IMG/VR virus record: IMGVR_UViG_3300043540_000243
Location: 1-47,731 of that record
DNA: 47,731 nt
From: a virus
Direction: 5' to 3' (one strand)
Shown here one piece after another: positions 29,232-45,350 of this stretch. The notes below the pieces were generated by a model, which worked only from the letters and a program-made list of their open reading frames with translations, was not told the DNA's origin and ran no database searches. Positions within the stretch are counted from its first letter, which is position 1; each line of letters starts with the position of its first letter. The translations under genes and the position numbers were made by a program.

Positions 29232-29251
29232 ATTTCGATGATGTGGAATAG

Positions 29252-30241: not shown

Positions 30242-30431
30242 GGACTCCCTCTGTGCATGTTTCGCTGGCTGTTTTCACCGCCTTCATCCTCGCTTCATTC
30301 AGGTGCTCGATGACAGTCTGTGCCGTCGAGGCTTGAATCTGGTAACTCCCGCCAGTGGCAAGATGCCAGAAGACTTCCTGAATCACATCTAGGTCGAATA
30401 CGCTGATTGGTACGGTAGCGGGGCTATTCAT
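30234..30431 (-). CDS. 65-residue unknown protein
   Basis: ATG at 30431 lies 8 bases inside the preceding gene and the stop overlaps the VRR-NUC start. Reads MNSPATVPISVFDLDVIQEV, then HLATGGSYQIQASTAQTVIE, ending in a basic helix. A longer ORF reaching 30542 is Ser/Pro/Thr junk from a shifted frame and is not used. No family recognised. Confidence 0.55.
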   Translation of the reverse strand: MNSPATVPISVFDLDVIQEVFWHLATGGSYQIQASTAQTVIEHLNEARMKAVKTASETCTEGVRK

Positions 30432-30858: not shown

Positions 30859-30875
30859 AAGTTCCTCCTGAGTTA

Positions 30876-30889
30876 TGCCCCTCATTTAC
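30876..30889 (-). repeat. Dispersed 14-bp site, copy 4
   Basis: GTAAATGAGGGGCA, exact, between the cytosine methylase and the next gene, same direction as transcription. Confidence 0.7.
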
Positions 30890-31949: not shown

Positions 31950-31984
31950 ATTCTGGCGAATACGGGCTCACTGCTCAAAAACGC

Positions 31985-32206
31985 TTATAGCTGTCCTATC
32001 CCGCAGTAGGAGCATTCGTTGAATGGCTCTCCGATAATTGCGTTCCCTGGAACCCAGTGATGTTTGCCGTCGGGCGACAGTGGACACTTGCCGGTGATCG
32101 AGCAGTAATCGCCACCATCGACGTCGTACTGGCATTTCTCGCACGCGCCACTGAGCATGACGCGGTGCCTACCACAATTCGGACATGCAATGTTGCGATA
32201 ACTCAC
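31985..32206 (-). CDS. Small zinc-ribbon protein next to attP
   Basis: 73 residues from GTG 32206 (TTAGGAGC upstream). Three Cys pairs: ACPNCGRH, ACEKCQYD, and ECSYCGIG, plus one CSITGKC. Such multi-ribbon microproteins occur in this genome at several places. It may bind nucleic acid or the host transcription or repair machinery; this is inference. It lies between attP and the methylase. Confidence 0.6.
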   Translation of the reverse strand: MSYRNIACPNCGRHRVMLSGACEKCQYDVDGGDYCSITGKCPLSPDGKHHWVPGNAIIGEPFNECSYCGIGQL

Positions 32207-32235
32207 TTCGAAGCTCCTAATTTATCGTTTGCGAG

Positions 32236-32253
32236 TGTGACAAATGTGACAAA
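32236..32253. repeat. Left arm repeats: two TGTGACAAA in tandem
   Basis: TGTGACAAA at 32236-32244 and 32245-32253, directly abutting. Same 9-mer recurs on the other side of the tRNA-like core, so these are likely arm-type sites for the integrase N-terminal domain or an excisionase. Confidence 0.65.
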
Positions 32254-32290
32254 GCAGGTGATTCAGCAGGCAGGTAAGTTATTGATTCTA

Positions 32291-32356
32291 TGGTGGACGT
32301 GACTGGGATCGAACCAGCGACCTCATCGTTGCGAACGATGCGCTCTCCCATAGCTA
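32291..32356 (-). other. attP core: 3' part of a tRNA-Ala(CGC) gene
   Basis: The minus strand carries the 3' part of a tRNA: D-stem remnant, a perfect anticodon stem CATCG/CGATG with loop TTCGCAA (anticodon CGC at 32331-32333), a 5-base variable loop, T-arm with loop TTCGATC, acceptor 3' strand CACGTCC, A73 and CCA (32291-32293). Base 70 is U, as in tRNA-Ala (G3:U70). The 5' acceptor strand is not complementary and the D-loop is only 5 bases, so this is not a full tRNA. It lies 3 bases after the integrase stop. This is the classic attP fragment that restores the host tRNA on integration. Confidence 0.85.
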
Positions 32357-32358
32357 AC

Positions 32359-33579
32359 CTACTGAATCGTAACCACTTCGTTGCCGTTTCCCTCGCTCAA
32401 AACGGCGGTTTTTTGTGACAAGTTTGTGACAAACTGTGACAACTTCCGCAATGCACGCCGCTGCGCCTCGGGAACCGCTTGGGCGTAAATGTCCATCGTG
32501 GTCCCAACGCGCGAGTGACGCGCCAGTGCCTGCACCGTCTTTGGATCCGCCCCTGCCTCAACCAGCCAGGTGAGGAACGAACGCCGCAAGCAATGCCAGT
32601 TCACCTTCCCGAGTCCGACCGCTCGCGCGGCTGGCTTGATGTGGCGGCCGAGAATGTTGTGATCGTCCATCTCGGCGCCGGCGTACACCGACTGGAATAT
32701 GAGATCGTCCGGCCCGTCGGCGCGCACGGCCTTGACCTTGCGCGTCGCACGACCAGCTCGGTATGTAACTGTCATGTCCTTCAGTCGGTTGATACGCTGG
32801 ATCACCTCGGGCGGGACGCCGATCGTCGCTGCGCTGTGTACGCTCTTCGTGTGCGACCAGTCGCCGCGGCAGTACCGCTCCTCGATCGCGATCGAATCCT
32901 CGCCGATGCAGCGCCACTTCAGGCCGATCAATTCGCTCACGCGCAGCCCCGTCCACACGGCGACAAAGACCATTGTCGCGTACGGTTCACGGATCCCGGC
33001 GAGAATCTGCACGAACTCCTCGGGAGTGATGACGAACTTCTTTCGCTTCCCGCGCTTGTCCGGAGGCAGAGTGACATTCTCAAGGGGATTGCCTTCGACC
33101 AGTCCGAAGCGCCTGGCCGAACGCAGCACGCTCGAGAGCGCGTCGCGTACCTTCACTCGTGTCGGATGCTCGATGCTTTTCGCGGCCATCCCACTAAAGA
33201 ACACCTGCAATTCCATCGTGGTGATTTCCCGGAAGCACATCGAACCGAACACCGGCTTGAGATGGTTATCGATCGCACGCTCGTAGCTGTCTCGCGTGGT
33301 TGACGCCAGCAGTGGTGACTCGGTGATGTTGTAGTGTTTGTCCACGTAATCGCTGAACTGCATCCCGCCGCCGACGTTCTGCAAACCCTGATTGATGGAC
33401 TGCAGGTAGTCGGCTGCGAGCTTTCTTACTTCGCGTATCTTCTTCGAGCCGCTACACAGCTTTTCGCGATGCTGCCTGCGAACGCGCTGGCCGTTCTCGA
33501 AAAAGTCCTTCCGTACCCGTATGTACCACCAGTTCCCGATTCGCTCGGGTTCTGGGTCCTGATACCGACGTCTGGCCAT
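32359..33579 (-). CDS. int: Tyrosine integrase
   Basis: 406 residues from ATG 33579 (AAAGGAG 11 bases upstream); an upstream TTG at 33657 would add 26 residues. N-terminal arm-binding region with WYIRVRKDFFENGQRVRRQH, a core-binding helical domain (STTRDSYERAIDNHLKPVFG), and the catalytic domain: Arg in TGLRVSELIGLKW, His-x-x-Arg in WHCLRRSFLTWL, His in ARHSRVGTTMDIYAQ with the nucleophile Tyr in DIYAQ. Its stop is 3 bases from the attP tRNA fragment, and its last codons contain three TGTGACAA repeats. Catalyses recombination between attP and the host tRNA-Ala. Confidence 0.93.
   Translation of the reverse strand: MARRRYQDPEPERIGNWWYIRVRKDFFENGQRVRRQHREKLCSGSKKIREVRKLAADYLQSINQGLQNVGGGMQFSDYVDKHYNITESPLLASTTRDSYERAIDNHLKPVFGSMCFREITTMELQVFFSGMAAKSIEHPTRVKVRDALSSVLRSARRFGLVEGNPLENVTLPPDKRGKRKKFVITPEEFVQILAGIREPYATMVFVAVWTGLRVSELIGLKWRCIGEDSIAIEERYCRGDWSHTKSVHSAATIGVPPEVIQRINRLKDMTVTYRAGRATRKVKAVRADGPDDLIFQSVYAGAEMDDHNILGRHIKPAARAVGLGKVNWHCLRRSFLTWLVEAGADPKTVQALARHSRVGTTMDIYAQAVPEAQRRALRKLSQFVTNLSQKTAVLSEGNGNEVVTIQ
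32414..32443. repeat. Right arm repeats: three TGTGACAA copies inside int 3' end
   Basis: TGTGACAAG at 32414-32422, TGTGACAAA at 32425-32433 and TGTGACAAC at 32435-32443. Starts are 11 and 10 bases apart, one helical turn. They lie inside the integrase coding sequence, encoding a repeated SQ/VTN-type segment, about 60 bases from the tRNA core. Confidence 0.65.
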
Positions 33580-33665
33580 CTGCTCGAGTTCTCCTTTCGA
33601 GAGCAGAGAGCCTTTCTTCGCCGGCGGTAGAGTATCGGATTGTGTACGGGTAGACAACGGGTTTG

Positions 33666-35357
33666 TTACTCCACAATGTTGACGCGCATGCCTTCGACCG
33701 CGCGGTACCTGCCGCTGCCATCTGCCGGCAGCAGAAACCCGAGTTCAACCAGTTCCTTTAGCGCTTCGGAAACCCGCGGCGACGGCGTTATGCCCATGCC
33801 GCGCTCAGTAATGGCGGCGATGATTTCCGACGGACGCTTGCCGCTGGACAGTGCACCGTCGGCGATGAGCACGGCGATGCGCCCCTTGGCGTTCGAGCTG
33901 TCCATCTTGATCGTGCGGCGCTCGACGCGGACCTCAATCTCAGGCTTCGAATGCGCAATGGTGGCGAGGATGCCAGGCGCTTCTTTGGCCAGGCGTTCCT
34001 TTATGTGCTGGTAGATTGAGTCAGCGTCGTCTGTTCTCGGGAACGTTTGGCCATTCAGTGGAACCATGGGCTTATTCGGTTCCGGTTCTGCGACAAACGG
34101 CGCCGGCAGCGTCTTGTTTTCGAGCTCGACGATGCGCGCCCGGAGCGCTTCGATTTCCCGCTGGGCTTTCTCGTAAAGCGGCTTGTACATGTCATCCTCG
34201 TTTGCTTCGGAATTGGAATTGCCGTAGGCTTCCCCATCTGGTTTCAGGAACATTCCCGGTGGCTCGTAAACGACGTGCGCAACCTTGGGTGCGTGCCCGG
34301 GCGGAAGATCATCATGCGGTGGATACGCCGTGCGGACGTCACCGATAGTCGGCTCTAGTGGTGCCTGGCAAACTGCGTTGATGGTTCGGACGGCGGAGTG
34401 GGCAATCCTGCCCGTCGCGATACCAATCGCATCGGCCGCATTTATCCACGTCGGCTGCACGTATGTCTTGTGGACATTGGTTACCCAGCAGGCGAAAAAC
34501 TCGCCCAGCTTCAACTGGGGAATGTCGCCCTCTTTCGGACGCTTGACGCCCTTGGGGATGGCATCGAGCGATCGCCGTATCTCGTTCGGCTCACGCTGCA
34601 CGCCCAGCAGCCAGACCGCGGCGGCGCGCAGGATTTCCTTTTCCACGCCAGCCATGTCCTGCGAGTCGATCCAGATGTAGTTCTTGAGCGCGGCACCTTC
34701 CCGCGCTAACTTGCGGACTTCAACCTTGACTGGAGTGTTGCGGCCTTGCGGGACGAACTTCCATGCCTCGGGGATAATGGTGATGACGTCCTGGGCGTGC
34801 TGATAAATCCATCGAATCGAGGAACTGATCACCAGCAGTTGTAATTCCTCCGGGTACTCACGCACGTCCATGACGTTGAGACCTGGCGCAAGGTCCACAG
34901 ATGGAGTTTTGGGAAGCGACCGGACCAGTGGTACGACTTTAGACAGATACTCTCCCAGCAGCATGAAGATGTCTTTGTCCATGCTGCGCTTAGAGCGCTC
35001 CATCAAGTCAGAGACGTTGCGCTGCACTCCAGCGAGGCCATGGGCGCCCTTGCAGGCCTTTACGATCCAAGCGCGCTCGAACTTCATCCGCTGCTTCATG
35101 GTGGCTTCGAGTATCGACTCGATAAACTCCCAGTCGGCACGTTCCTGGAAGTAGGGCAATATGCGGCGCCCCTGGGAGAATCCGGATTCCCCGCGCTTGG
35201 TGATGAACGCGATGGCGCGGAGACCACTGCGCGAAATCAGTGCTTCGAGAGCCGTAGTTTTGCCGGCCTCCTGGGTCTGTCCGCAGACTGCCATGTGGCG
35301 CAGCGGAATCTCGATCGCTTTGCCAGTGCCAACTTCGTAGCCCAAATGGATGTTCAT
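33666..35357 (-). CDS. HerA/FtsK-like P-loop ATPase with C-terminal winged helix
   Basis: 563 residues. N-terminal start MNIHLGYEVGTGKAIEIPLR leads into Walker A AVCGQTQEAGKTTALEAL (residues about 24-40). Walker B-type DVITIIPEAWKFVP near 190-203 and a sensor-like WLLGVQREPNEIRRSL near 250 follow. This is the HerA/VirB4/FtsK helicase-translocase pattern (DUF87-like), which works as a hexamer on DNA. Near residues 385-410 there is a coiled coil (YEKAQREIEALRARIVELEN). The last 80 residues have a winged-helix look (SEIIAAITERGMGITPSPRV). Located between int and early genes. Could move phage DNA, load nuclease, or secure partition of an extrachromosomal form; the exact role is unknown. Confidence 0.75.
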   Translation of the reverse strand: MNIHLGYEVGTGKAIEIPLRHMAVCGQTQEAGKTTALEALISRSGLRAIAFITKRGESGFSQGRRILPYFQERADWEFIESILEATMKQRMKFERAWIVKACKGAHGLAGVQRNVSDLMERSKRSMDKDIFMLLGEYLSKVVPLVRSLPKTPSVDLAPGLNVMDVREYPEELQLLVISSSIRWIYQHAQDVITIIPEAWKFVPQGRNTPVKVEVRKLAREGAALKNYIWIDSQDMAGVEKEILRAAAVWLLGVQREPNEIRRSLDAIPKGVKRPKEGDIPQLKLGEFFACWVTNVHKTYVQPTWINAADAIGIATGRIAHSAVRTINAVCQAPLEPTIGDVRTAYPPHDDLPPGHAPKVAHVVYEPPGMFLKPDGEAYGNSNSEANEDDMYKPLYEKAQREIEALRARIVELENKTLPAPFVAEPEPNKPMVPLNGQTFPRTDDADSIYQHIKERLAKEAPGILATIAHSKPEIEVRVERRTIKMDSSNAKGRIAVLIADGALSSGKRPSEIIAAITERGMGITPSPRVSEALKELVELGFLLPADGSGRYRAVEGMRVNIVE

Positions 35358-35368
35358 CGTTTCGTTTC

Positions 35369-35677
35369 CTACACTGTGGATACTGAATCAAACTCCACAT
35401 AGGTCAAGTCTGTTAAGCGGGTGACTTCTATGCTGCCGTCCTCAAAGCGCTGACGCCACTGGTAGCGTCCATAATTTGGATATTCGAGCGTCCACTCATC
35501 GTCATCGTCGAGCGATTCGACCATCTCTTTGACGTGCTCGGTTTTGCACTCCTGCCACGGCTCACCGCATAGACACAGTTCCTCGTGGACCGCCTCTTTC
35601 AGTTTTTCGCCGGGAACAAGGAAGCACTGCGCACCATCGCCAGTCGTTATCAGGACGTACCATTCGACGCAGCTCAT
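35369..35677 (-). CDS. 102-residue protein with Cys pair, partner of ATPase gene
   Basis: ATG at 35677 with GAGAGCAACTGAAG upstream; the longer in-frame ORF to 35995 is the shadow of the neighbouring zinc-ribbon gene. Text: MSCVEWYVLITTGDGAQCFL, LKEAVHEELCLCGEPWQECK, then acidic DDDDEWTLEYPNYGRYQWRQ. One CLCxxxxxxC cluster. No family recognised. Its stop is 11 bases before the ATPase start. Confidence 0.55.
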   Translation of the reverse strand: MSCVEWYVLITTGDGAQCFLVPGEKLKEAVHEELCLCGEPWQECKTEHVKEMVESLDDDDEWTLEYPNYGRYQWRQRFEDGSIEVTRLTDLTYVEFDSVSTV

Positions 35678-35679
35678 CT

Positions 35680-35868
35680 TCAGTTGCTCTCTTTCGTTGT
35701 GCGCGACGTTGGATCGTCGCAATTTCTGTGTTTCACTTGAGAACCCTCGAACCGGTACTTGTGGCCCTTGAGTATCGGCTTGCCACATTGAGCGCATCGG
35801 CGGCCTTTTGTCGGCAACGGCTGGCCGCACATCAGGCAGAGTTCTCCGGATTGTTGCTGCTTCTTCAG
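35680..35868 (-). CDS. Zinc-ribbon microprotein with no in-frame ATG before its zinc site (possible CTG start)
   Basis: In this frame the protein reads KKQQQSGELCLMCGQPLPTK, then GRRCAQCGKPILKGHKYRFE, then HRNCDDPTSRTTKESN, a clean four-Cys ribbon (CLMC, CAQC). The only in-frame ATG (35832) lies inside the first CxxC and would lose its first Cys. Upstream of that, the sole start-like codon before a stop is CTG at 35868, which overlaps the preceding TGA as CTGA. The stop is 2 bases before the next ATG. So the gene is real by content, with a start that is uncertain and may be CTG. Confidence 0.55.
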   Translation of the reverse strand: MKKQQQSGELCLMCGQPLPTKGRRCAQCGKPILKGHKYRFEGSQVKHRNCDDPTSRTTKESN

Positions 35869-36059
35869 GCTGAGTGGCCTCCATCAAACGGAATCGCATC
35901 GGCCAGCACAAATACCTGAAGTGGTTCGCGCCCCTCGTGTCCAAGGCAGTGGTGCTTACCGTCGTGACACTGGAATAGCGGATGTGTACGATCAATGACG
36001 ATATGCCGCTCGCATCGATCGCAAAACACCATGCGCGGATCCTCTGTCGACTTAAGCAT
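35865..36059 (-). CDS. Small Cys/His-rich protein
   Basis: 64 residues from ATG 36059, which overlaps the preceding gene's TAA by 8 bases. The ATG at 36032 with GAGG upstream is a good alternative (55 residues). Core text MVFCDRCERHIVIDRTHPLF, then QCHDGKHHCLGHEGREPLQV: a zinc-finger-like set of Cys and His. No family recognised. The stop overlaps the CTG of the next zinc-ribbon ORF. Confidence 0.55.
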   Translation of the reverse strand: MLKSTEDPRMVFCDRCERHIVIDRTHPLFQCHDGKHHCLGHEGREPLQVFVLADAIPFDGGHSA

Positions 36060-36597
36060 TAGCAATCACCTCAAAGATGCCTAGTGGTAACCATCCAACC
36101 GCTCCCTCGTGCGTCCCTCCAACAGCGAGTACAGTCGGGAGATCGAAGAACTCGCCCGGGCTATGCGCTCCGTCTGGGGATAGATGTGGTACTCGGTCCC
36201 CAGGGGTCCAGTAGCCAAGGAATCCAACGACCAAATTCTGTAGCAGTGAGTCCGGATCGAAATCCATATCTTTACCTTTCATCGTCGCGGCGCGCACCGC
36301 GTAGCGGCCAGCGGCACGGATCATGTCAGCAAATTCCGTGCGTGTGACGACGTGTAACTTCTCATATGTACCGAAACTGCAGATAAGAGCCTTGGAAGTC
36401 GTTCCCATCCGAAATACCATCGGTGGAGGTTCAAAACCTTCGTTCTCGGCAGACGGGTCGCCGTATATCCAGTGATCTTTCGGAAGAGGCATTGACATCA
36501 CAGCAAAACCGGAACCGTCGGAAAGCACGCCGGCGTTTTCAATCTCGCCATTACAGGCGTTGGCAATCTGCTGGAGTACATTCTTTTCCTCGCTCAT
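36052..36597 (-). CDS. Unknown 181-residue early protein
   Basis: ATG 36597 with AAAGG at 36607-36611; the upstream in-frame start at 36606 is less well spaced. Mixed alpha/beta, with MSEEKNVLQQIANACNGEIE at the start and AVGGTHEGAVGWLPLGIFEV near the end. No membrane segment or metal site. It lies after the very short 36594 ORF, overlapping it by 4 bases. No family recognised. Confidence 0.6.
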   Translation of the reverse strand: MSEEKNVLQQIANACNGEIENAGVLSDGSGFAVMSMPLPKDHWIYGDPSAENEGFEPPPMVFRMGTTSKALICSFGTYEKLHVVTRTEFADMIRAAGRYAVRAATMKGKDMDFDPDSLLQNLVVGFLGYWTPGDRVPHLSPDGAHSPGEFFDLPTVLAVGGTHEGAVGWLPLGIFEVIANA

Positions 36598-36665
36598 TTC
36601 CACCATCCTTTCAACCTGATTGACAGGCCATCGCTATATTCAACATCGATGTCAATGGAACCCAT
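36594..36665 (-). CDS. Possible 23-residue peptide
   Basis: MGSIDIDVEYSDGLSIRLKG then WWK, ending in an ATGA overlap with the next gene. Fills the only gap in an otherwise overlapping run of genes. No clear ribosome site for its ATG. The protein text reads as a beta hairpin and looks real, but it is too short to be sure. Confidence 0.35.
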   Translation of the reverse strand: MGSIDIDVEYSDGLSIRLKGWWK

Positions 36666-36709
36666 AAGTACCAAGTACAACAGGCACCATCTGATTGTTC
36701 TCAACAAGA

Positions 36710-36871
36710 TCACTTCCTCGCTGGCGGCAGTGGCCGCACTGAATATTCCTTTTTGCTCTCGTCCTTCAGGTACGGGAACTCGTAACAAAACCAGTGTTTC
36801 GGATCGTAATACAGCGGATCCCGCTCGCGTTCCATGGCAGCCAAGACGGCACTGGTATCTGTTTCGTCCAT
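36710..36871 (-). CDS. 53-residue unknown protein
   Basis: Begins 2 bases after the Fis-type gene stop. Reads MDETDTSAVLAAMERERDPL, then YYDPKHWFCYEFPYLKDESK, ending RPLPPARK. GGAGAG lies 9 bases before its ATG. Text has coding character and no frame competitor of quality. No family recognised. Confidence 0.55.
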   Translation of the reverse strand: MDETDTSAVLAAMERERDPLYYDPKHWFCYEFPYLKDESKKEYSVRPLPPARK

Positions 36872-36873
36872 GG

Positions 36874-37155
36874 CTACGCTCTCCGCAGCATTGCTTCACA
36901 TTCGGTGGCGCTGCGCACGGACTTGCGCTTAGACATCTCTCTTCGGATGCCACGCACATCGATGTTCAGGTCGTCGATGTATCGCGACATCGTATTGCGG
37001 TGGACTCCGATGGCACGTGCGGCGCGGCATTGATTCCCACGGTGCTGAGTCAGCACGCTCACCACAAACTCGCGGCGAACAGCTTCTACTGCTTCGTCGA
37101 GCGTGACCTCGGCGCTGACCATTGCTGATACCAATTGCTGTAGTAGGACTCTCAT
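36874..37155 (-). CDS. Fis-type helix-turn-helix DNA-binding protein
   Basis: 93 residues from ATG 37155 (GAGAGGGA upstream). A longer in-frame ORF to 37374 is Arg/Ser shadow. HTH core: VRREFVVSVLTQHRGNQCRA, then ARAIGVHRNTMSRYIDDLNI, matching the HTH_8/Fis family (F..VL..H.GN..RAA..LG..R.TL...). Basic C-terminal tail. Likely a small transcription regulator or architectural protein of the leftward operon, able also to help integrase. Confidence 0.8.
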   Translation of the reverse strand: MRVLLQQLVSAMVSAEVTLDEAVEAVRREFVVSVLTQHRGNQCRAARAIGVHRNTMSRYIDDLNIDVRGIRREMSKRKSVRSATECEAMLRRA

Positions 37156-37249
37156 TCCCTCTCCGCTCCTATGACTGAATAGACAGCGTTCGACCTGCCG
37201 GTACGTTGAAGTCGAACGCTGCCTGTTTCGTTGCCATGGCCTGGACCTC

Positions 37250-37993
37250 TTACGAAATGACCGGTATGTCCTTGATGTCGAGGATGCGGATAAACCGCGC
37301 AACCTCATCGATCGCCGCAATCTGCCACTTGCCGCCATCGGCCTCGGTGAGCATGAGCGTCGGTGACTCGCCACCGCGCGCCCGGAATACGAAATCCGAG
37401 ATAGGTTGGTGGCATTCGGGGAAGGTACGATACGGCGCCAGGCTCACAGTGCGCTTGATTTCGACGTTTTCCTTGATGCCGAGGCCGGCCTTGATCGTGA
37501 CTTTCTGGCTGACTCCGTCGTCCTCGGAGAGACTGGTTGCCTCGGTCGTCATGGCCGATGCAACCTTGAGGACGTACTCGCGGTCCGGTGTATCCGCGAA
37601 CAGAGCAGTGACCGCGATCACGAAACTCTCTTGGTCGAGCCACTTGCCGAACTGGTATTCGGTGAAGTTGACGGGCGAGGCTTCGATGAGCACCTGGCGC
37701 CGACCACACTCGTCGGACACCTTCGACACCAGTTTGACGTTGCGATGGTCAACGACGTGGATGAGGTACTGCTCAAGATCGAACTTCTCGATGTTCTGCT
37801 GGATCAGGTCGGCGAGGCCGTTGAGAGTGGTCACTCTCATCGGCTCGGGAACCGGCAGCTTCACCGGCTGCTCGGGCTGTTGGGGAGAGTCGTACACTTG
37901 GTAGAGTCTCTTACTGGAATAGGTTTTGCCGTTGATTTGAAACGTCGTCGGCGATGCAATTTCCAGAACTCTGTCAATGGCTTCCTTGATCAT
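37250..37993 (-). CDS. Unknown recombination-region protein (possibly DUF2303/YfdQ-like)
   Basis: 247 residues. N-terminal helix MIKEAIDRVLEIASPTTFQI, Pro-rich linker, then the core: LADLIQQNIEKFDLEQYLIH, VDHRNVKLVSKVSDECGRRQ, and EYQFGKWLDQESFVIAVTAL. It ends with a DGGKWQIAAIDEVARFIRIL segment. The HR, EYQFGKW and similar patterns recall DUF2303-type phage proteins (E. coli YfdQ), but this is a weak impression. Next gene (138 residues) is 40 bases upstream in the operon. Confidence 0.6.
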   Translation of the reverse strand: MIKEAIDRVLEIASPTTFQINGKTYSSKRLYQVYDSPQQPEQPVKLPVPEPMRVTTLNGLADLIQQNIEKFDLEQYLIHVVDHRNVKLVSKVSDECGRRQVLIEASPVNFTEYQFGKWLDQESFVIAVTALFADTPDREYVLKVASAMTTEATSLSEDDGVSQKVTIKAGLGIKENVEIKRTVSLAPYRTFPECHQPISDFVFRARGGESPTLMLTEADGGKWQIAAIDEVARFIRILDIKDIPVIS

Positions 37994-38033
37994 TTTCTTA
38001 TCTCGCTTCTGTGAATTGGTACTGCGGTGAAAC

Positions 38034-38450
38034 CTAGTTTCCCTTCAATGGCGGCGCGTATCCCGGTGTTGCCGCCGGTACTCCGGCACCATGAGAATGC
38101 TCACCGATGGGCTTGATTTCCGTCGTCATTGGTTCCTGGAAAAGCGCTTCCTGACGGACATCGGCGTTGAACAGCGTGATCTCCTTGCTGTGCGAGTCCA
38201 TTGCGATGTAGGCCATGGCCTGTCCTGGCTCTGCGCCCGGAAGCTCGGTCTTCACCTCATAGACGATTTGGGCGGTCTGGCCCTTTTTGTCGGGCTTGAC
38301 CTTGATCGTCAGTTTCAGTTTGCGAACGCCCTCGTTTGGCACGTTCGGATCGGCGATGTTCTCAGCAATCTTGACGAAGGCCCTCTGCACGAGAGCCGAC
38401 ATCTCACCGCCAGCGATATTGTTCAGGTCTAATTTCTGGGCGTTGCTCAC
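38034..38450 (-). CDS. Phage protein often labelled 'replication terminator protein'
   Basis: 138 residues from GTG 38450, with AGGAGG 8 bases upstream. Text MSNAQKLDLNNIAGGEMSAL, then AFVKIAENIADPNVPNEGVR, then KLKLTIKVKPDKKGQTAQIV fits the common phage family with 'NI.DPNT....RK..I.....P', which is often annotated as replication terminator. That label is not experimentally firm to my knowledge. The C-terminal 30 residues are Pro/Gly-rich. Sits between DUF5131 and the DUF2303-like gene. Confidence 0.65.
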   Translation of the reverse strand: MSNAQKLDLNNIAGGEMSALVQRAFVKIAENIADPNVPNEGVRKLKLTIKVKPDKKGQTAQIVYEVKTELPGAEPGQAMAYIAMDSHSKEITLFNADVRQEALFQEPMTTEIKPIGEHSHGAGVPAATPGYAPPLKGN

Positions 38451-38469
38451 TGCTACCACCTCCTGTAAG

Positions 38470-39195
38470 TCAGTTCCGTAATCCACCTTCACTACGCATG
38501 AGTGCTAGAGCCTCGTCGTAGCTCATCAGCCGCAATACAAAGCGATTGTTCCGTGCGTCGGGGCCGGACTCACCGCCGACGACAACCCAGTTGATCAGCA
38601 GAGTGTTTAAGTTACGTACTAGAACATCCTCAAGTAAGGGTTCAGCGGACCACCAACGAGTGATCGCTGGCGTTTGCCTCAGAATGTCCAAGTACGCATC
38701 TGCGCACTTTTTCGTCCCCGCACTGACGCCTTCCCAGATGTGTGCGTATTTTGCTGCGGCGATGCCCTTGCCTTCCTCGGTCTGTGTTAAGAAGTGCAAT
38801 CTCCGCTCTGGCCTTTTGGTGAGAATCTGAAAGGTATGACCCTTGTGCAGCGCGCCGGCGAGTGCCATCACTGCATAGACTTCGCTGATCCATTCATCGG
38901 GCACAAACTCGCCGTACAGGTCCGTCATTGAGCACACGAAGAACGTGGACGGCTTGCGAATGTGCAGCGGTTCCTCAAGTACGCGCTGGTCGAGATAGAG
39001 CTCGACTTTGTCTGCCTGATCGACGGCGTAGCGGATTCCGTTGCCGAAGCGCCCGGAGTTCATCCGTTCGGCATAGCAGTTCTTGCATTCGGAAGCTACC
39101 TTGGTGCAGAACCAGCCGCGTTTGCTGGTCTCACGGTTTCGCGCCCGTATTGGGTTCCACGTGCGCTCCGTCCACTCGATTGATGTCTTACTCAT
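38470..39195 (-). CDS. DUF5131 (Gp37/Gp68-like) protein
   Basis: 241 residues. MSKTSIEWTERTWNPIRARN, then TKVASECKNCYAERM, the Cys set of phage DUF5131 proteins, and later FFVCSMTDLYGEFVPDEWI, LTKRPERRLHFL, WWSAEPLLEDV and WVVVGGESGPDARN. All expected blocks are present. The fold is thought to be radical-SAM/TIM-barrel-like with an iron-sulfur site, but the reaction is unknown. It begins 3 bases after a 38-codon ORF. Confidence 0.85.
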   Translation of the reverse strand: MSKTSIEWTERTWNPIRARNRETSKRGWFCTKVASECKNCYAERMNSGRFGNGIRYAVDQADKVELYLDQRVLEEPLHIRKPSTFFVCSMTDLYGEFVPDEWISEVYAVMALAGALHKGHTFQILTKRPERRLHFLTQTEEGKGIAAAKYAHIWEGVSAGTKKCADAYLDILRQTPAITRWWSAEPLLEDVLVRNLNTLLINWVVVGGESGPDARNNRFVLRLMSYDEALALMRSEGGLRN

Positions 39196-39198
39196 TCT

Positions 39199-39315
39199 TC
39201 AGAACAGTCCTTTCACCTGATTGAGCCGGTCCGTGTTGTGCTGCAGCCAGTCTTTGGCTTCGTCGTAAATCTCGGCATAGCCATCGGAGAGCGGCTTGTA
39301 TAGGTCGCTCCTCAG
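39199..39315 (-). CDS. 38-codon ORF with candidate CTG start
   Basis: Between two small genes, the frame reads RSDLYKPLSDGYAEIYDEAK, then DWLQHNTDRLNQVKGLF. It has protein-like character, is free of stops and ends 3 bases before DUF5131. The only start-like codon before the upstream stop is CTG 39315, which overlaps TGA of the preceding gene as CTGA. Same geometry as at 35868. Alternatively it is the 3' part of that gene after a frameshift. Confidence 0.4.
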   Translation of the reverse strand: MRSDLYKPLSDGYAEIYDEAKDWLQHNTDRLNQVKGLF

Positions 39316-39422
39316 CTTCTAGCGACAAGAGTGAAGGTCCTCTGTCCGCGCTGCTTTGCCTTCGCAAAACAGCGGTTGTCTTTTTCGTTCTCGCTGATCT
39401 GAATCACGTCTCCTCCATCCAT
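39312..39422 (-). CDS. 36-residue small protein
   Basis: ATG 39422 gives MDGGDVIQISENEKDNRCFA, then KAKQRGQRTFTLVARS. The end (F.KA..RG..TFTLVA) is a pattern common in longer phage proteins, which continue past this point. So it may be a natural short form or the front of a frameshifted gene whose continuation is the 38-codon ORF. Weak AAAGAAC ribosome site. Confidence 0.45.
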   Translation of the reverse strand: MDGGDVIQISENEKDNRCFAKAKQRGQRTFTLVARS

Positions 39423-39457
39423 ATGTTCTTTGTGGTCACAGCCATACACTGATACTG

Positions 39458-39673
39458 CTAGTGAATGGTTTCCGCTTCCATGGAATCGGCGACGGGAAAC
39501 ATGCCGACGTGGTGCGCAATCTGCTCGCCCATGTCCATATTGAAGCCCGCACGGCAAGCGACACAGTTCGTTACCGGCAACGGCGGATCGTCTAAAAAGA
39601 AGCGAAGAGTCTGCTTGTGATTGCAACGGCGGTTTGTGCATTGGTACGTTACTTCTCTCAATTCTTCTGGCAT
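39458..39673 (-). CDS. 71-residue zinc-ribbon protein
   Basis: ATG 39673 with AGGAGG upstream (spacing about 11). Text: MPEELREVTYQCTNRRCNHK, then TLRFFLDDPPLPVTNCVACR. Cys pairs CTNRRC and CVAC form a ribbon. The longer ORF to 39811 starts in junk. No family recognised. About 144 bases upstream to KTSC hold no convincing gene, only a short frame ending in CMVSREIRERGAVDGLP. Confidence 0.6.
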   Translation of the reverse strand: MPEELREVTYQCTNRRCNHKQTLRFFLDDPPLPVTNCVACRAGFNMDMGEQIAHHVGMFPVADSMEAETIH

Positions 39674-39817
39674 TGATAGACATTCCTCCTGAGATATAGG
39701 TGTGGCGCCGCGTATTTCAAGGAAGGCCATCCACCGCGCCCCGTTCGCGGATCTCCCGCGACACCATGCACGGCGCCACTTGCCAGCAGAGCGGATCGTC
39801 GCCGCTGGCAAACTTGG

Positions 39818-40030
39818 TTACAGCGCCTTACCGGGAATCTTGCGAATGTGATCCGCGAAGAACTTCCCTTTTGATTCCGACTTCATAAAGTTTCGGTGGA
39901 CTTCCGGCGAGACCCCTTCGTACTGGTAGGTCTTGCCACTGGAAAAAGTCACCTGCAAGTGGCCGGTTTTGTCGTCGTAACCGATCGACTTGATGCTGCT
40001 GGAACTAACTGCGGTGTGTTGCATAGGCAT
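39818..40030 (-). CDS. KTSC domain protein
   Basis: 70 residues; matches the KTSC pattern: VSSSSIKSIGYDDKTGHLQV, then FSSGKTYQYEGVSPEVHRNF, then MKSESKGKFFADHIRKI. KTSC domains occur alone in phages and fused to lysyl-tRNA synthetases; nucleic-acid binding has been suggested. AAAAGGAGAACACC precedes the ATG. Upstream, in the 64-base gap, lies a GTAAATGAGG site. Confidence 0.88.
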   Translation of the reverse strand: MPMQHTAVSSSSIKSIGYDDKTGHLQVTFSSGKTYQYEGVSPEVHRNFMKSESKGKFFADHIRKIPGKAL

Positions 40031-40057
40031 GGTGTTCTCCTTTTCAGTACTGCTATT

Positions 40058-40071
40058 TGCACCTCATTTAC
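40058..40071 (-). repeat. Dispersed 14-bp site, copy 5
   Basis: GTAAATGAGGTGCA, 13 of 14, in the gap upstream of the KTSC gene, same direction as transcription. Confidence 0.65.
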
Positions 40072-40094
40072 CAACTACCACAGAACCTGAAATC

Positions 40095-40910
40095 TTAGCG
40101 TTTCCGTCCAGTTGTGCGCGGTTCAAGCTTCGAGTAGGCCCGGACGCCCGGGATATTGGTCGCGCCCTTGAGCGCCTTGACGACCTTGCCGATCGCCGAT
40201 TCGTTGATCAACAGGTACTCGCGCGGTACGGCGTTTGCATCGGCGATCTCGAAATACCAGTTCTCCACCATGGAGCCCTGCCCTTCCACTTTGGCGCTGA
40301 CAGTCTCCGGTACCACGACCGGTACGGTTGGCACAATGACCGGAGCCACAGGAGCGACCACGACAGGAGTCGCAAGAATGGCCCTGGCGACTTCAGGCTT
40401 GCCTGCAGCTTCAGCAGCGATGGCCTCATTTATCCGAGTCTCTTCCGCCTTGCGCTGCGCTTCCTCGTGGGCTTTGCGTGCTGCTTCTTCCGCAGCCTTG
40501 CGTGCTTCCTCCTCGGCCTGGCGCTGCGCTTCTCGTTGCTGCCGATCGAGCTCTTCCTGTATCCGACGGCACTCGGTTTCATACGCCGACAGCTTAGAGC
40601 GGATAATTGTGTCGGGTTCGTCGAGATTGTCGAGGTGCCTCTTCTCCTGTGAGCAGATAGCCTTCCATGTGTCATAGGCCTTTTTCTTCGACTCGACGAA
40701 GTCGGAAATGATGTCCTTGCGGAGTTCGGCGATGCCATTCAGCAGATCCCACGCGATCTGCTTGGTCTCGGCGTCGCGGACCACGAGCGCTACAGCGCGG
40801 TCAAGCAGGCCATTGCGCTTGGTTTCAATCTTTTCGATCGCCTGCTCCATTGCCTGCTCGGCAATAAGCGGCGCGAGGGTGTGAGAAGTTTCTACGGCTG
40901 GTGTGGCCAT
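40095..40910 (-). CDS. Coiled-coil early protein
   Basis: 271 residues. Residues 1-120 are helical (MEQAIEKIETKRNGLLDRAV). Residues 120-165 are a strong Glu/Gln/Lys/Arg/Ala coiled coil (EELDRQQREAQRQAEEEARK). It has a Val/Pro hinge, then a compact C-terminal domain (WYFEIADANAVPREYLLINE). This layout is common for phage proteins beside recombination nucleases. Likely an accessory or scaffolding partner for recombination; not a recognised enzyme. AAGGAAA before the ATG. Confidence 0.65.
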   Translation of the reverse strand: MATPAVETSHTLAPLIAEQAMEQAIEKIETKRNGLLDRAVALVVRDAETKQIAWDLLNGIAELRKDIISDFVESKKKAYDTWKAICSQEKRHLDNLDEPDTIIRSKLSAYETECRRIQEELDRQQREAQRQAEEEARKAAEEAARKAHEEAQRKAEETRINEAIAAEAAGKPEVARAILATPVVVAPVAPVIVPTVPVVVPETVSAKVEGQGSMVENWYFEIADANAVPREYLLINESAIGKVVKALKGATNIPGVRAYSKLEPRTTGRKR

Positions 40911-40928
40911 GATGAATGTTTCCTTTCC

Positions 40929-41576
40929 TTAGAGGTTCAATTTGTAACCACGATTCAACTGCAACCAAACGACGGCGAGCGACCATGCGAACGCTTGGTA
41001 ATCGCCCTCGTCCTCATACTTGTGCATCTGGTATGTGCTGTTCTTGCGTAATTGCACGGCATAACGATCACGGTGTAACTGGTTCGGACATTGCGGCATC
41101 GTGGAGTCGTATCCCGCGAGCTGCAACCCCCACCAGGCGTACTTGCTTTCGCCGGTTTTGATTTCGAGGACAGACTCCCGCCCGTTCACAATGGCGCGGC
41201 GGTCGTACTTGCGTCCGACCGGCATTCCGTTGATGGTGCCAATCGCCTGTTGTTCCACGTCGAGAATCTGCACGTCGCACTCACGCTTAAATTGCAGCCA
41301 CTGTAGCACGTAGGGCAAATACTCGGCATTGATGGGAGAGAGGTCAATTTCTTCCTCAGGCACGCCAGCCATCTCGGTATCGATAAATTCGGTGATGGCA
41401 TGGACAGCGGTACCGCGAGCACTGGCACGTTCGAGGATATCGGACTGGATGTCGTCATAGTTAGCCCATCCGGTCTGCTTGAGCACCTGCGTCGTTGACG
41501 GGATGACAACGCCGTCTGACCGTATATACAGATGTCGAGCTTCATCGAAAGTGAAAGCAACCGCAGCGGTGGCCAT
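40929..41576 (-). CDS. PD-(D/E)XK nuclease (RecB-like)
   Basis: 215 residues from ATG 41576 (GGGGGGAAA upstream). N-terminal FTFDEARHLYIRSDGVVIPS and TQVLKQTG, then the active site: GRKYDRRAIVNGRESVLEIK (Asp then ExK), followed by WGLQLAGYDSTM, the Q-x-x-x-Y motif of RecB/Cas4-type nucleases. Probably a 5'-3' or end-processing exonuclease for phage recombination, paired with the next gene, whose stop codon is 2 bases upstream of this gene's ATG (no overlap). Confidence 0.85.
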   Translation of the reverse strand: MATAAVAFTFDEARHLYIRSDGVVIPSTTQVLKQTGWANYDDIQSDILERASARGTAVHAITEFIDTEMAGVPEEEIDLSPINAEYLPYVLQWLQFKRECDVQILDVEQQAIGTINGMPVGRKYDRRAIVNGRESVLEIKTGESKYAWWGLQLAGYDSTMPQCPNQLHRDRYAVQLRKNSTYQMHKYEDEGDYQAFAWSLAVVWLQLNRGYKLNL

Positions 41577-41578
41577 GG

Positions 41579-42559
41579 CTATTTCCCCCCTCGCGCAGCC
41601 CATGCACAGGCTTCCTCATATCCCGACTTGGGCATCAGGCGATCATCCTCAATACCAAAGCGCTGTATGAGGTAGTTCTTCATCTCTGTCTTGGTGACGC
41701 CATTGCCCATGCATAGCCCAAAGAAGCGGCGCGCTTGAGGAACGGTAATGGTCTCGTAATTTGGTTGAGACGACGGGGTTTGCTGATCGCCTATCGGCGA
41801 ATGCGCTACCTGTGGCAGCGGTGCGGACTGAGCCGGTTGTGTAGCTGGCTGGGGCGGCGCACTACTGCCCTTTCGTTGTGGCATAGCGACCGGCGCGGCA
41901 GGCTTTGCTGGTTGGCTTGCGCTGCCGGCGCCGCTTGCCGCTTCGCCATCGGCGACTTCGTGCTGCAACTCCTCGGGGAGATCCTCGATGTCCTGGGTGA
42001 AGATGTCGGACGCCGCAGTGACAGTCAACGTGACATCAATCTGTGAGCGCTTCTTCGCCATCTTGAGCACCGTATTGGCGACGTCGGCCCACTCGGTACG
42101 AACCTGCTGAATCTGGTAAACGCGGTCGCGTTGGTCTTTGCCCCATTTGATACGCCGCCGATGTTCTGGAGTGGCATCAAATTCTTCCTGGCAGACTGCG
42201 CGGCGCCACTTGTATTTCTCTTCGTTGGAACTGGCCTCGCCGATTCCTGATCCGAGATAAGCGCCCGTCGGGATGCTGGTCGCACGAGTGGTCACGCGGA
42301 AGCGTGCAACGTCGTCGGTACTCAGGTCCTCGACGATCGGCTCGATCGCGATGTGGAAGGTGCTGAGTAATATTTCCGAGCCAGGCTTCCAGAGACTCGG
42401 CTTTTTCGTCCCGGGGATGACACCATAATGCTCGCCTTCCTTCATTACGGCGCGCATGACTTCCTGTATCAGATTGACCTGCGCTCTGATCTCGGCGGCC
42501 GATTGCGGCTTACTGGGAACCTCGTGTTTGACTTCGACGATTGCTGCATTCGATCCCAT
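41579..42559 (-). CDS. Recombination-module protein, candidate single-strand annealing partner
   Basis: 326 residues. The N-terminal 190 residues resemble a widespread phage family next to nucleases: VMRAVMKEGEHYGVIPGTKK, PSLWKPGSEILLSTF, then TEWADVANTVLKMAKKRSQI, and AASDIFTQDIEDLPEEL. A Pro/Gln/Ala linker (about 205-270) leads to a C-terminal helical domain (RFFGLCMGNGVTKTEMKNYL). The order nuclease + this protein matches exonuclease + annealing protein pairs, so annealing or DNA binding is inferred. I do not recognise it as RecT, Erf or Rad52. Confidence 0.65.
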   Translation of the reverse strand: MGSNAAIVEVKHEVPSKPQSAAEIRAQVNLIQEVMRAVMKEGEHYGVIPGTKKPSLWKPGSEILLSTFHIAIEPIVEDLSTDDVARFRVTTRATSIPTGAYLGSGIGEASSNEEKYKWRRAVCQEEFDATPEHRRRIKWGKDQRDRVYQIQQVRTEWADVANTVLKMAKKRSQIDVTLTVTAASDIFTQDIEDLPEELQHEVADGEAASGAGSASQPAKPAAPVAMPQRKGSSAPPQPATQPAQSAPLPQVAHSPIGDQQTPSSQPNYETITVPQARRFFGLCMGNGVTKTEMKNYLIQRFGIEDDRLMPKSGYEEACAWAARGGK

Positions 42560-42570
42560 GCAGTCCTCCT

Positions 42571-42834
42571 TTATTTAACCGGCTCCTTCTTAGGGACCGG
42601 CTTACTACTAAGCTCTCGCGAGACCCATTGCATGGCGTGCTCAATCCCGCATAGATGGACAGCGTCAACGTTAATGACGTCACGCACGATGTCAGCGGCT
42701 TCGTCCCACATCGTGGAACCCCATGGCAGCAGTAGCACTCCGCCGTTGACGACATGTCCATGGAACCAGTGATTGGCATCGCTGGCGTGATGCTTGTCGC
42801 ACAACTCGCACTTGTAGGTCTCCGGTACCCTCAT
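42571..42834 (-). CDS. Small Cys/His protein
   Basis: 87 residues from ATG 42834, overlapping the upstream stop as ATGA. MRVPETYKCELCDKHHASDA has CELC plus two His, a zinc knuckle; later text HLCGIEHAMQWVSRELS is helical. No family recognised. Longer ORF to 42909 is a shadow. Confidence 0.6.
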   Translation of the reverse strand: MRVPETYKCELCDKHHASDANHWFHGHVVNGGVLLLPWGSTMWDEAADIVRDVINVDAVHLCGIEHAMQWVSRELSSKPVPKKEPVK

Positions 42835-43097
42835 CGCGTTACCCACTCCGCAAACAGACGAATACCGTAGGCGATACCGACAAAGATCAAGTAAATCGCC
42901 GTGCTGCACAGACCTAGGGCGAGCGACTTACACAGCGCTTCTGCGTGCGACCGGAACAGTCCTGGCTTGGTGGATTGCGCCCTGTGCTCCTCGTGCCAGC
43001 GCTCATTGTTGTTCTGCCACTTATCGGCAATCCGTAGCGATTTCAGGAAGTGGATATCCTGCTCGGTGATTTCCTGTTTTTCCCAAAGAACCGACAT
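42831..43097 (-). CDS. Single-span membrane protein
   Basis: 88 residues with a soluble, charged N-terminus (EKQEITEQDIHFLKSLRIAD) and one C-terminal membrane helix (SLALGLCSTAIYLIFVGIAY, about residues 57-77). A tail-anchored early membrane protein may serve superinfection exclusion or membrane attachment of replication; that is a guess. Confidence 0.6.
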   Translation of the reverse strand: MSVLWEKQEITEQDIHFLKSLRIADKWQNNNERWHEEHRAQSTKPGLFRSHAEALCKSLALGLCSTAIYLIFVGIAYGIRLFAEWVTR

Positions 43098-43101
43098 GGT
43101 C

Positions 43102-43332
43102 TTATCCTCTGGCTACAGCGGCGTAAACCTTTCGCTTGGACTGTAGTTCCGCAAAGCAACGCTGGCAGACGGTGGGATCTTTCGGATCAGGCCTGTGCCG
43201 CTTGAAGATTGGGCGTAATTTCTCGTTAATCCCCAGCAGGAGATGTTGATTGCGGCGTCCGCCAACCTTTTGGCAAGGCAACTTGATGCGACGATTGTCG
43301 CGGCCCGTCAGCAAACTCATACAAAAACTCAT
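43102..43332 (-). CDS. Small basic protein with CxxC
   Basis: 76 residues from ATG 43332 (GGAGG upstream, ATGA overlap). Very basic text LLTGRDNRRIKLPCQKVGGR, then RHRPDPKDPTVCQRCFAELQ. A CQRC site and many Arg/Lys suggest nucleic-acid binding. No family recognised. ATG at 43320 is an alternative. Confidence 0.55.
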   Translation of the reverse strand: MSFCMSLLTGRDNRRIKLPCQKVGGRRNQHLLLGINEKLRPIFKRHRPDPKDPTVCQRCFAELQSKRKVYAAVARG

Positions 43333-43541
43333 TGAGCCTCCAAGATGGCATTGGCGATTTCCTGATATGTCGCATTGACCGCGATGGCGATGGCATGTTT
43401 AATGCGAGGATCTGCTGTAGCGAGTGCCGGATCGTCCTCGTATTGCTTCATCTTGCGCTGGCCAACCTCAATTGCAATCTCAGCCGCACGCTGGCGGGTT
43501 CCTTCCGCGACTGCCGTCGCTTTCTCTAGGGGAGTCAACAT
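43329..43541 (-). CDS. Helical 70-residue protein
   Basis: ATG 43541 with GAGGTGATC just upstream. MLTPLEKATAVAEGTRQRAA, then DDPALATADPRIKHAIAIAV, then EIANAILEAQ. Wholly helical. A longer ORF to 43718 passes through the tRNA on the same strand and is not used. No family recognised. Confidence 0.55.
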   Translation of the reverse strand: MLTPLEKATAVAEGTRQRAAEIAIEVGQRKMKQYEDDPALATADPRIKHAIAIAVNATYQEIANAILEAQ

Positions 43542-43617
43542 GATCACCTCACGGCACGGCTGCGCTTCACGGACGCAGCTCGATAACTTCCCGCATAGTT
43601 GTTTGGTTGGTGAAAAT

Positions 43618-43695
43618 TGGTAGCGGGGCCGGGAGTTCAACCCGGTAAAGTCTGGGTTATGAGGCCAGCGAGCGCAGCGTAGCTCAATCCCCGCA
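43618..43695 (-). tRNA. tRNA-Met-like gene, anticodon CAU, initiator-like
   Basis: 78 bases with encoded CCA. Acceptor TGCGGGG pairs by 6 bp with CCCCGCT; bases 1 and 72 (U and U) do not pair, as in initiator tRNAs. T-arm is perfect (CCGGG/CCCGG). Anticodon loop CTCATAA (CAU at 43659-43661) with stem CTGGC/CCCAG, four of five pairs (C31-C39 mismatch). D-arm is reduced. CAU may mean initiator Met, elongator Met or Ile2. Lies between two leftward small genes. Confidence 0.75.
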
Positions 43696-43714
43696 TTGAA
43701 ATTGGTTGCGATAT

Positions 43715-43900
43715 TCATGCCACTTCAATCTCCCGCTGAACATCGGATAGCTTCTTGTTGAGCGCACCCACAACACGAAAGCCGTTCTTCCAGATGGCAT
43801 TCGCTTCAACTCCGACAAGGATGCAATCTTTCAGAATCGCGTCGGAGATCATTGGGTATTTGCGGCGCAATTCATCGAGTTGGCGCTTCCAGTAATTCAT
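43715..43900 (-). CDS. 61-residue helical protein
   Basis: MNYWKRQLDELRRKYPMISD, then AIWKNGFRVVGALNKKLSDV. ATGA overlap with the upstream gene. Charged helix at the N-terminus. No family recognised. Its stop lies about 20 bases before the tRNA. Confidence 0.55.
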   Translation of the reverse strand: MNYWKRQLDELRRKYPMISDAILKDCILVGVEANAIWKNGFRVVGALNKKLSDVQREIEVA

Positions 43901-44304
43901 GCACGGCCTGCAGCGCGATCACACGCCTCTTGTTCGGCGCGGTCTTCTTCGGCTTGCTCGGTGAATTCGTCTCCGGTGTAGCCGGGTTCCATGTCTTCCA
44001 ATTCCCACGTCTCCACCTCTACAGTCTTCTTCGTTTTTTTCCCGACATTGCCAAAGTAGGTTGCGAGAGTGATTTTCAATATCCCTAGCTGCGACTCAAA
44101 ACGACAGAAGTAATCATCTGTGACCGCGTTGCCACCCAAGATTTTCATGGCAGCCTGAAATGAACTGCCATCGTGATAGTGAAGAGCGAGGCCATTGAAG
44201 CCACCTGTTTCAACACAGAATGGAGGATGAGATTCCAATTTCTCCGCGAGACGATGTAGCGCAGCGGCCAATTCGTGGGAGGTATTGAGTTCACTATGGT
44301 TCAT
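43897..44304 (-). CDS. Unknown 135-residue protein
   Basis: MNHSELNTSHELAAALHRLA, then EKLESHPPFCVETGGFNGLA and KILGGNAVTDDYFCRFESQL. The C-terminal 40 residues are acidic (GDEFTEQAEEDRAEQEACDR). Mixed alpha/beta core. It follows the RHH gene by 33 bases in the leftward operon. No family recognised. Confidence 0.6.
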   Translation of the reverse strand: MNHSELNTSHELAAALHRLAEKLESHPPFCVETGGFNGLALHYHDGSSFQAAMKILGGNAVTDDYFCRFESQLGILKITLATYFGNVGKKTKKTVEVETWELEDMEPGYTGDEFTEQAEEDRAEQEACDRAAGRA

Positions 44305-44337
44305 GTCATGCCGCTCCTTAGACGGCAGAAATTGCGG

Positions 44338-44559
44338 TTACCTTACAGGCTCCTCTGTCTTGGCAAGACCTAAATCCTTGCGCGCCTGTTCCAGTACGAC
44401 GGCGCGGATGTAAGCGGTGCGAGTGCGATGCACACTTTTCCGCGCTGCCCGTTCGACGAGGCGTATGTCGGCCCGCGTCTTGAAGTAGACGTCGATGCCG
44501 TTGCGTGGCAAGCTCCCTGGATGCCCGCCGCGTTTCCTGTGAGTTTCCCTGTCTGTCAT
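44338..44559 (-). CDS. Ribbon-helix-helix (CopG/Arc-like) regulator
   Basis: 73 residues. After a basic arm (MTDRETHRKRGGHPGSLPRN) comes an RHH pattern: strand GIDVYFKTR, helix ADIRLVERAARKS, helix RTRTAYIRAVVLEQARKDLG. First gene of the leftward operon and directly behind promoter 44597-44626 and the GTAAAT operator. RHH dimers bind short repeats spaced in tandem, just as seen at 44571-44592, so autoregulation is the natural hypothesis. Confidence 0.7.
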   Translation of the reverse strand: MTDRETHRKRGGHPGSLPRNGIDVYFKTRADIRLVERAARKSVHRTRTAYIRAVVLEQARKDLGLAKTEEPVR

Positions 44560-44570
44560 AAGTATTGGTC

Positions 44571-44592
44571 ATTTACCTGTAAATAGATTTAC
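44571..44592. promoter_or_regulatory. Operator: three alternating GTAAAT half-sites
   Basis: ATTTAC CT GTAAAT AG ATTTAC. Half-sites at 44571-44576, 44579-44584 and 44587-44592 alternate in direction with 8-base pitch, making two overlapping palindromes. They lie just downstream of the -10 box of the leftward promoter, over the likely transcription start. Confidence 0.8.
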
Positions 44593-44596
44593 GTGC

Positions 44597-44626
44597 ATGT
44601 TACCCGCAATGACAAAGTGGTGTCAA
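44597..44626 (-). promoter_or_regulatory. Leftward early promoter
   Basis: On the minus strand, perfect -35 TTGACA (44621-44626), spacer 18, -10 TAACAT (44597-44602). The RHH gene starts about 40 bases downstream. Drives the whole leftward operon. Confidence 0.75.
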
Positions 44627-44751
44627 GCCAATTCTTCGGGGGAGAAGTAGATATCGACCCGTTTGTCATGCCGTCGGCCCTCGACTTGGCGCTTACGGCG
44701 CAGCCCGGGGATCGGCGATGTTCCCTTGCCCTTCTTTTTTAGTGGTGCCAT
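44623..44751 (-). CDS. 42-residue basic protein
   Basis: MAPLKKKGKGTSPIPGLRRK, then RQVEGRRHDKRVDIYFSPEE, ending LA. Highly basic; the last part (RVDIYFSPEEL) looks like the strand and first turn of an RHH protein. No clear ribosome site. Its stop codon overlaps the -35 box of the leftward promoter. May be a cut-down RHH relative. Confidence 0.45.
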   Translation of the reverse strand: MAPLKKKGKGTSPIPGLRRKRQVEGRRHDKRVDIYFSPEELA

Positions 44752-44845
44752 ACGGGTATTTTGGGGGTATTACCAAAGTTATGCAACAGAATTTTGGTAC
44801 ATGTGCGGGATTATATGAGTGGTCATTTCCCACTATGAAAACAAG

Positions 44846-44868
44846 AGGCCCATTTCTGGGCCTTTCTT
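44846..44868 (-). terminator. Terminator after the 51-residue leftward gene
   Basis: AGGCCCA (44846-44852) with TGGGCCT (44857-44863), loop of 4. On the minus strand the stem is followed by CTTGTTTTC, on the plus strand by TTCTT, so it could act both ways. It lies 15 bases past the stop of the 51-residue gene. Confidence 0.65.
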
Positions 44869-44877
44869 GCTCGAAAG

Positions 44878-45033
44878 TTACGGACTCCGGCGCTTTGGGC
44901 TGCACTGAACAAGCAAGTGATTACGGGCGTAATGAAGAATTTCACCTACCTGGGCGTCGGTCAGAGGTTTAGCCGGGCCTAGCTCGCTTTCTAGGAACTT
45001 GCGAAAAAGTGATAGCGTGTCTGCGTCATCCAT
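44878..45033 (-). CDS. 51-residue monocistronic control-region protein
   Basis: ATG 45033 with AGGGG about 9 bases upstream. MDDADTLSLFRKFLESELGP, then LTDAQVGEILHYARNHLLVQ. It has its own promoter (-10 TATAAT at 45083-45088) and own terminator, between the two early operons. No HTH is evident, but a repressor gene would sit here in a lambdoid plan. Candidate regulator, by position only. Confidence 0.55.
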   Translation of the reverse strand: MDDADTLSLFRKFLESELGPAKPLTDAQVGEILHYARNHLLVQCSPKRRSP

Positions 45034-45082
45034 TTTTGTCCCCTTTGTTCCGATTGCAAAACCGCCCCAACATTTACCACGG

Positions 45083-45113
45083 ATTATAGGTATCACCGGT
45101 GGGTGTTCGTGAA
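45083..45113 (-). promoter_or_regulatory. Promoter of the 51-residue gene
   Basis: On the minus strand, perfect -10 TATAAT (45083-45088) and a TTCACG -35 (45108-45113), spacer 19. A GTAAAT half-site begins 5 bases after the -10 box, the same layout as at the leftward early promoter (4 bases). Confidence 0.6.
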
Positions 45114-45215
45114 GTGACTCTGGTTGTAGAACCTGTTTGGGAGGGGTAACTAAGTTTGGACAATTAGGGTGGCGTTCTCCGCGAGATATCCACTTTTACA
45201 CAAAGTTTTCCTATT

Positions 45216-45229
45216 TATACCTCATTTAC
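45216..45229 (-). repeat. Dispersed 14-bp site, copy 6
   Basis: GTAAATGAGGTATA, 11 of 14 (first ten bases exact), in the control region. Confidence 0.55.
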
Positions 45230-45350
45230 CCGCAGATTTTTCTTGCAGCCGGGCCACCAAAACGACTACAAAGCAGGCATCCGCTTTTAGTTATCCGTCC
45301 GGATCGACTGCGTGAGCGTCGCAGTGGGAATCTCGGGCGAGGTGTGCGCA

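Follow-up and report, generated by a model that had tools for sequence, protein, structure and literature searches.

The start site predicted for the leftward early promoter of this phage is covered by a three-part array of alternating half-sites, GTAAAT-CT-ATTTAC-AG-GTAAAT, and it is very unlikely that this array arose by chance. We read it as the operator of the early promoter, at which a small phage regulator, most likely the product of gene 44338-44559 (73 residues), blocks initiation and shuts its own operon; we give this reading an even chance of being correct. We infer that a protein binds the array, that the 73-residue product is the binder, and that repression is the outcome. The product would bind the three half-sites cooperatively and cover about -3 to +20, so that RNA polymerase could not start. 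Transcription of the operon would thereby lead to accumulation of the protein, which would switch off its own promoter together with the downstream recombination and other early genes. If this is true, the phage, which has no known close relatives, would possess a compact early-gene switch operated by a regulator that escapes recognition in sequence searches. The array is a ready-made test site for the 73-residue protein.

The analyzed window is the entire IMG/VR virus record IMGVR_UViG_3300043540_000243, 47,731 bases in length. Mainly structural genes run rightward at about 400-28200, followed by a leftward early region at about 28300-44560, which encodes an integrase, a methyltransferase, exonuclease-like proteins and a phrog_10048 family protein. 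From 45312 the genes run rightward again (a Dam-like methylase and a primosomal protein), and the stretch 44560-45311 separates the two divergent units. The phage is probably temperate, as it carries an integrase gene.

The early promoter and its array

On the minus strand, TTGACA (44626-44621) is followed by an 18-bp spacer, TAACAT (44602-44597) and the four bases GCAC. Boxes of this quality were found at chance level in the pattern scan, i.e., two versus 2.7 expected in shuffles. Because matches at 10 of 12 positions occur at chance frequency in the region, the promoter role rests on the position upstream of the operon. The array comes next, with GTAAAT at 44592-44587, CT, ATTTAC at 44584-44579, AG, and GTAAAT at 44576-44571; these are three half-sites of alternating orientation with 2-base gaps and an exact 8-bp pitch, the first of which contains the predicted start (about 44590). 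The first-pass annotation had described a GTAAAT four bases past TAACAT, continued as alternating half-sites at 8-base pitch, and both direct reading and the pattern scan agree with it. The coordinates of all features are collected in the table below.

Features of the leftward leaders discussed in the text
Feature	Position	Strand	Remarks
GTAAATGAGGTGCAAATAG in the leader of the KTSC-domain gene (39818-40030)	40053..40071	-	intergenic repeat copy
Small basic protein of 73 residues, encoded by the first leftward operon gene; candidate autorepressor	44338..44559	-	codon fit z 2.25
Operator-like array GTAAAT-CT-ATTTAC-AG-GTAAAT	44571..44592	-	22 bp, covers predicted start about 44590
Leftward early promoter TTGACA-18-TAACAT	44597..44626	-	10/12 consensus match
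42-residue ORF, end VDIYF	44623..44751	-	stop codon overlaps TTGACA box; ORF list, repeat search
51-residue ORF	44878..45033	-	good Shine-Dalgarno AAAGGGG; codon fit z 2.14
Single GTAAAT, part of GGTAAATG	45072..45077	-	5 bases (CCGTG) past TATAAT; pattern scan
TATAAT of the putative promoter of the 51-residue gene	45083..45088	-	perfect -10, poor -35
Second-site candidate GTAAATGAGGTATAAATAG	45211..45229	-	17/19 identical to 40053-40071, intergenic

We simulated window-sized sequences with the local dinucleotide content kept and counted arrays of the form X-N(g)-revcomp(X)-N(g)-X, for any hexamer X and any equal gap g of 0-6. The expectation is 0.025 such arrays per simulation (about one in 40 windows), versus the one present, which is located at this promoter. 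Outside the array, no two half-sites in the window are spaced at 8-bp pitch, even when one mismatch is allowed over the pair. The array lies in a short intergenic leader, bounded upstream by the early promoter and downstream by the ORF that opens the leftward operon, and this location between promoter and first gene makes negative autoregulation by the product of the first gene the simplest account.

The array pattern was found in seven stretches of IMG/VR viruses, most of them within coding DNA, and none of the seven has a comparable promoter leader ahead of a small regulator gene. Twenty-two stretches of GTDB genomes contain the pattern, mostly within genes; five represent one conserved coding place, probably rpoC, in Erysipelotrichia-like genomes, and no recognizable small regulator gene adjoins the array in any of the 22. 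A close phage relative with the same array, which could be used for the analysis of conservation, was not found, and searches via the 73-, 135- and 51-residue proteins, the terminase and the portal yielded no usable relatives. The phrog_10048 protein and the Dam-like methylase as queries led to many distant loci; relatives of the 73-, 42-, 51- or 135-residue proteins were present in 0 of 167 of these loci.

Two further candidates in this region were rejected. An alternative 84-residue frame (44318-44572), which starts inside the array, has a poor codon fit, and by our own estimate a repeat as long as TGGTCATTTACC/TGGTCATTTCCC (44566, 44820) is to be expected by chance.

The 73-residue protein and known repressor systems

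One point against the autorepressor reading is that the 73-residue protein is without sequence or structural support as a DNA-binding protein. The failure to find a related phage with this array, and the missing Shine-Dalgarno sequence at normal distance from ATG 44559, also count against it. Its earlier designation as an RHH protein is not supported. The RHH_1, Arc and RHH_3 models had no match in the record at E up to 10; Pfam, PHROGs and NCBIfam provided no family, the PDB sequences gave nothing, and no relatives were found in phages, plasmids, viral contigs and genome contigs. Pairwise scores against Arc and Mnt are at shuffle level, in a test that also misses true RHH pairs. By eye, the segment IDVYF (IDVYFKTRAD...) is strand-like, with a long helical segment after it. 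Two single-sequence AlphaFold models consist of one long helix with no strand (pLDDT 63 and 83); a helix modeled with no alignment says little either way, given that the expected fold is an intertwined dimer. Thus, the protein is not filed as RHH, yet it may work like one. Repeated sub-sites of fixed pitch near the protein's own promoter, as expected of an RHH operator, are found here, with the array and the protein paired by position only.

The end of the 42-residue ORF, VDIYFSPEELA, resembles IDVYF of the 73-residue protein, with a similarity at shuffle level; the ORF could be a truncated paralogue. A possible promoter of this ORF is TTCATA-18-TATAAT, with TATAAT at 44815-44810. About 10 bases past this TATAAT, on the minus strand, there is a dyad with 13-base arms, TACCAAAATTCTG-TTG-CATAACTTTGGTA (44771-44799). 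The expected number of such dyads in the region is 0.075, and the RNA of this dyad folds poorly; it may be a different, putative operator.

A repressor seated over the start site of its own operon is a textbook principle, and switches are known in which the first gene of an early operon represses that operon via short tandem sites across the start. In P22 immI, the operators of the small phage repressors Mnt and Arc overlap or directly follow the -10 box of the blocked promoter (at Pant, the Mnt operator palindrome GGTCCACGGTGGACC begins 7 bases past the -10), as would be the case for the putative operator described here. However, P22 has two distinct operators, whereas the present phage has one three-part alternating array with 8-bp pitch, and the 73-residue protein shows no detectable sequence relation to either Arc or Mnt. 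MetJ is an RHH protein with tandem sub-sites at 8-bp pitch, of which at least two are needed; the pitch is that of the array, but met boxes are palindromic 8-mers, and MetJ is a cellular protein that needs SAM. Operators of the 434/P22 c2 HTH type are 14-bp dyads with two half-sites, whereas the dyads in the array overlap and share the middle half-site, and no HTH repressor was found. The omega RHH protein of pSM19035 (ParB-pSM) recognizes 7-bp repeats in both orientations, a single repeat being bound weakly and two repeats strongly (PMC9499535). Omega sites resemble the array in being short sub-sites of fixed pitch and mixed orientation located over promoters, including that of omega itself (PMC9499535); they differ in the 7-bp pitch, the number of repeats (7-10), the sequence (WATCACW) and the role in plasmid partition.

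The promoter of the 51-residue gene

The single GTAAAT at the second promoter is present where the first-pass annotation had placed it, five bases past the TATAAT at 45088-45083. The best -35 candidates are TTCACG at 19 bp and CGAACA at 15 bp, and this promoter is absent from the list of promoters produced by the pattern scan. In this stretch, a half-site is expected 0-10 bp downstream of any one TATAAT with a probability of about 1%, or 2% when both TATAAT boxes are counted, and the earlier reader picked out the site at 45072 from several possible promoters and spacings. Of the 114 promoter-like sites in the window, the early promoter and the promoter of the 51-residue gene are the only ones with GTAAAT or ATTTAC at -10 to +25 of the -10 box; by our own estimate from the hexamer frequency, roughly two such sites are expected. 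The earlier interpretation holds up in part: the array at the early promoter is non-random and sits where an operator that blocks initiation is expected, but the second site is a lone hexamer next to a poor -35. Thus, one repressor might shut both promoters. The GTAAAT at the promoter of the 51-residue gene would be, at most, a weak secondary site, and the proposed stronger binding at the early promoter would follow from the number of sites alone.

Relatives of the 51-residue protein were not found in family and contig searches. A possible leader ORF of 15 codons (45026-45073, minus strand) begins with ATG at 45073 and has a stop codon that overlaps the place where the 51-residue gene starts (ATGGATGA). 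The spacer of the promoter of this gene contains, at 45090-45106, GTATCACCGGTGGGTGT with the palindrome CACCGGTG, which looks operator-like.

Other readings of the repeats

The main rival is an HTH protein, from an unrecognized phage gene or from the host, that reads the 14-bp dyads, in which case the array would be an operator for an HTH dimer on GTA-N8-TAC. This is possible although on the doubtful side. The array holds two overlapping 14-bp dyads GTAAAT-N2-ATTTAC, with roughly one helical turn between the outer GTA and TAC triplets, the spacing that an HTH dimer requires, and no repressor has been identified for this presumed temperate phage. Conversely, the two overlapping dyads could not both be occupied by such a dimer; a search of the record, which may be incomplete, for the HTH_3 domain at E up to 10 gave no hit, and searches of the early genes revealed no regulator. 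The dyad also agrees with the cyanobacterial NtcA box, GTA-N8-TAC, but a match to so short a pattern carries no meaning. Under a different alternative, the repeats work as RNA in the leftward transcripts, either by forming a hairpin in the leader or by acting on translation. All five minus-strand copies of GGTAAATG are on the sense strand of leftward transcription, and the 73-residue gene has no well-placed Shine-Dalgarno sequence (there is none at normal distance from ATG 44559). However, the leader RNAs are no more stably folded than shuffled sequences, with z of +0.73 for the array leader and -0.31 for the leader of the 51-residue gene; this lack of unusual structure favors a DNA site over an RNA hairpin. 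An RNA hairpin in the leader is unlikely, and we consider a role of the repeats as RNA very improbable.

It has also to be considered that one regulator reads GGTAAATG at several leftward leaders (44577, 45078, 45230, 40072 and 30890), as the first-pass annotation proposed for two of them; we regard this explanation as unlikely. The minus strand has five copies of GGTAAATG, four in leftward leaders and the fifth elsewhere in intergenic DNA, whereas both plus-strand copies lie within genes. The hexamer GTAAAT occurs seven times in 4635 intergenic bases, versus 1.1 expected, with three of the seven supplied by the array, and 40053-40071 and 45211-45229 are the only intergenic pair with a match of 17/19. 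Evaluated as a de novo 8-mer, however, four intergenic copies are a usual maximum (reached in 680 of 1000 simulations). A leader count of four is rare (1 in 300) only with the downstream start of one gene, chosen after the motif had been seen; using the longer ORF, the count is three, which is reached in 20% of simulations. No copy of GGTAAATG outside the array has an 8-bp partner. Two of the places (40066 and 30884) are without a recognizable promoter just upstream; therefore, the logic of a site just past the -10 box does not generalize. The recurrence at five places may be taken as a moderate hint that keeps the idea of one factor with several sites alive as a lead. The more specific version, in which an orphan small protein with no recognizable relatives governs several leftward transcription units via GGTAAATG, with tight autoregulation at the array and single sites that tune other genes, is improbable in our estimation.

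The 19-base repeat GTAAATGAGGTNNAAATAG (40053-40071/45211-45229) includes two of the GGTAAATG copies, and its exact pattern is absent from IMG/VR. An excess of GTAAAT in the whole window (23 versus 10.3 expected) was discounted, as it is gone under a higher-order model (18.9 expected). The start of the minus-strand gene 30424-30885 is probably the in-frame ATG at 30858, with AGGAGG just upstream, rather than 30885.
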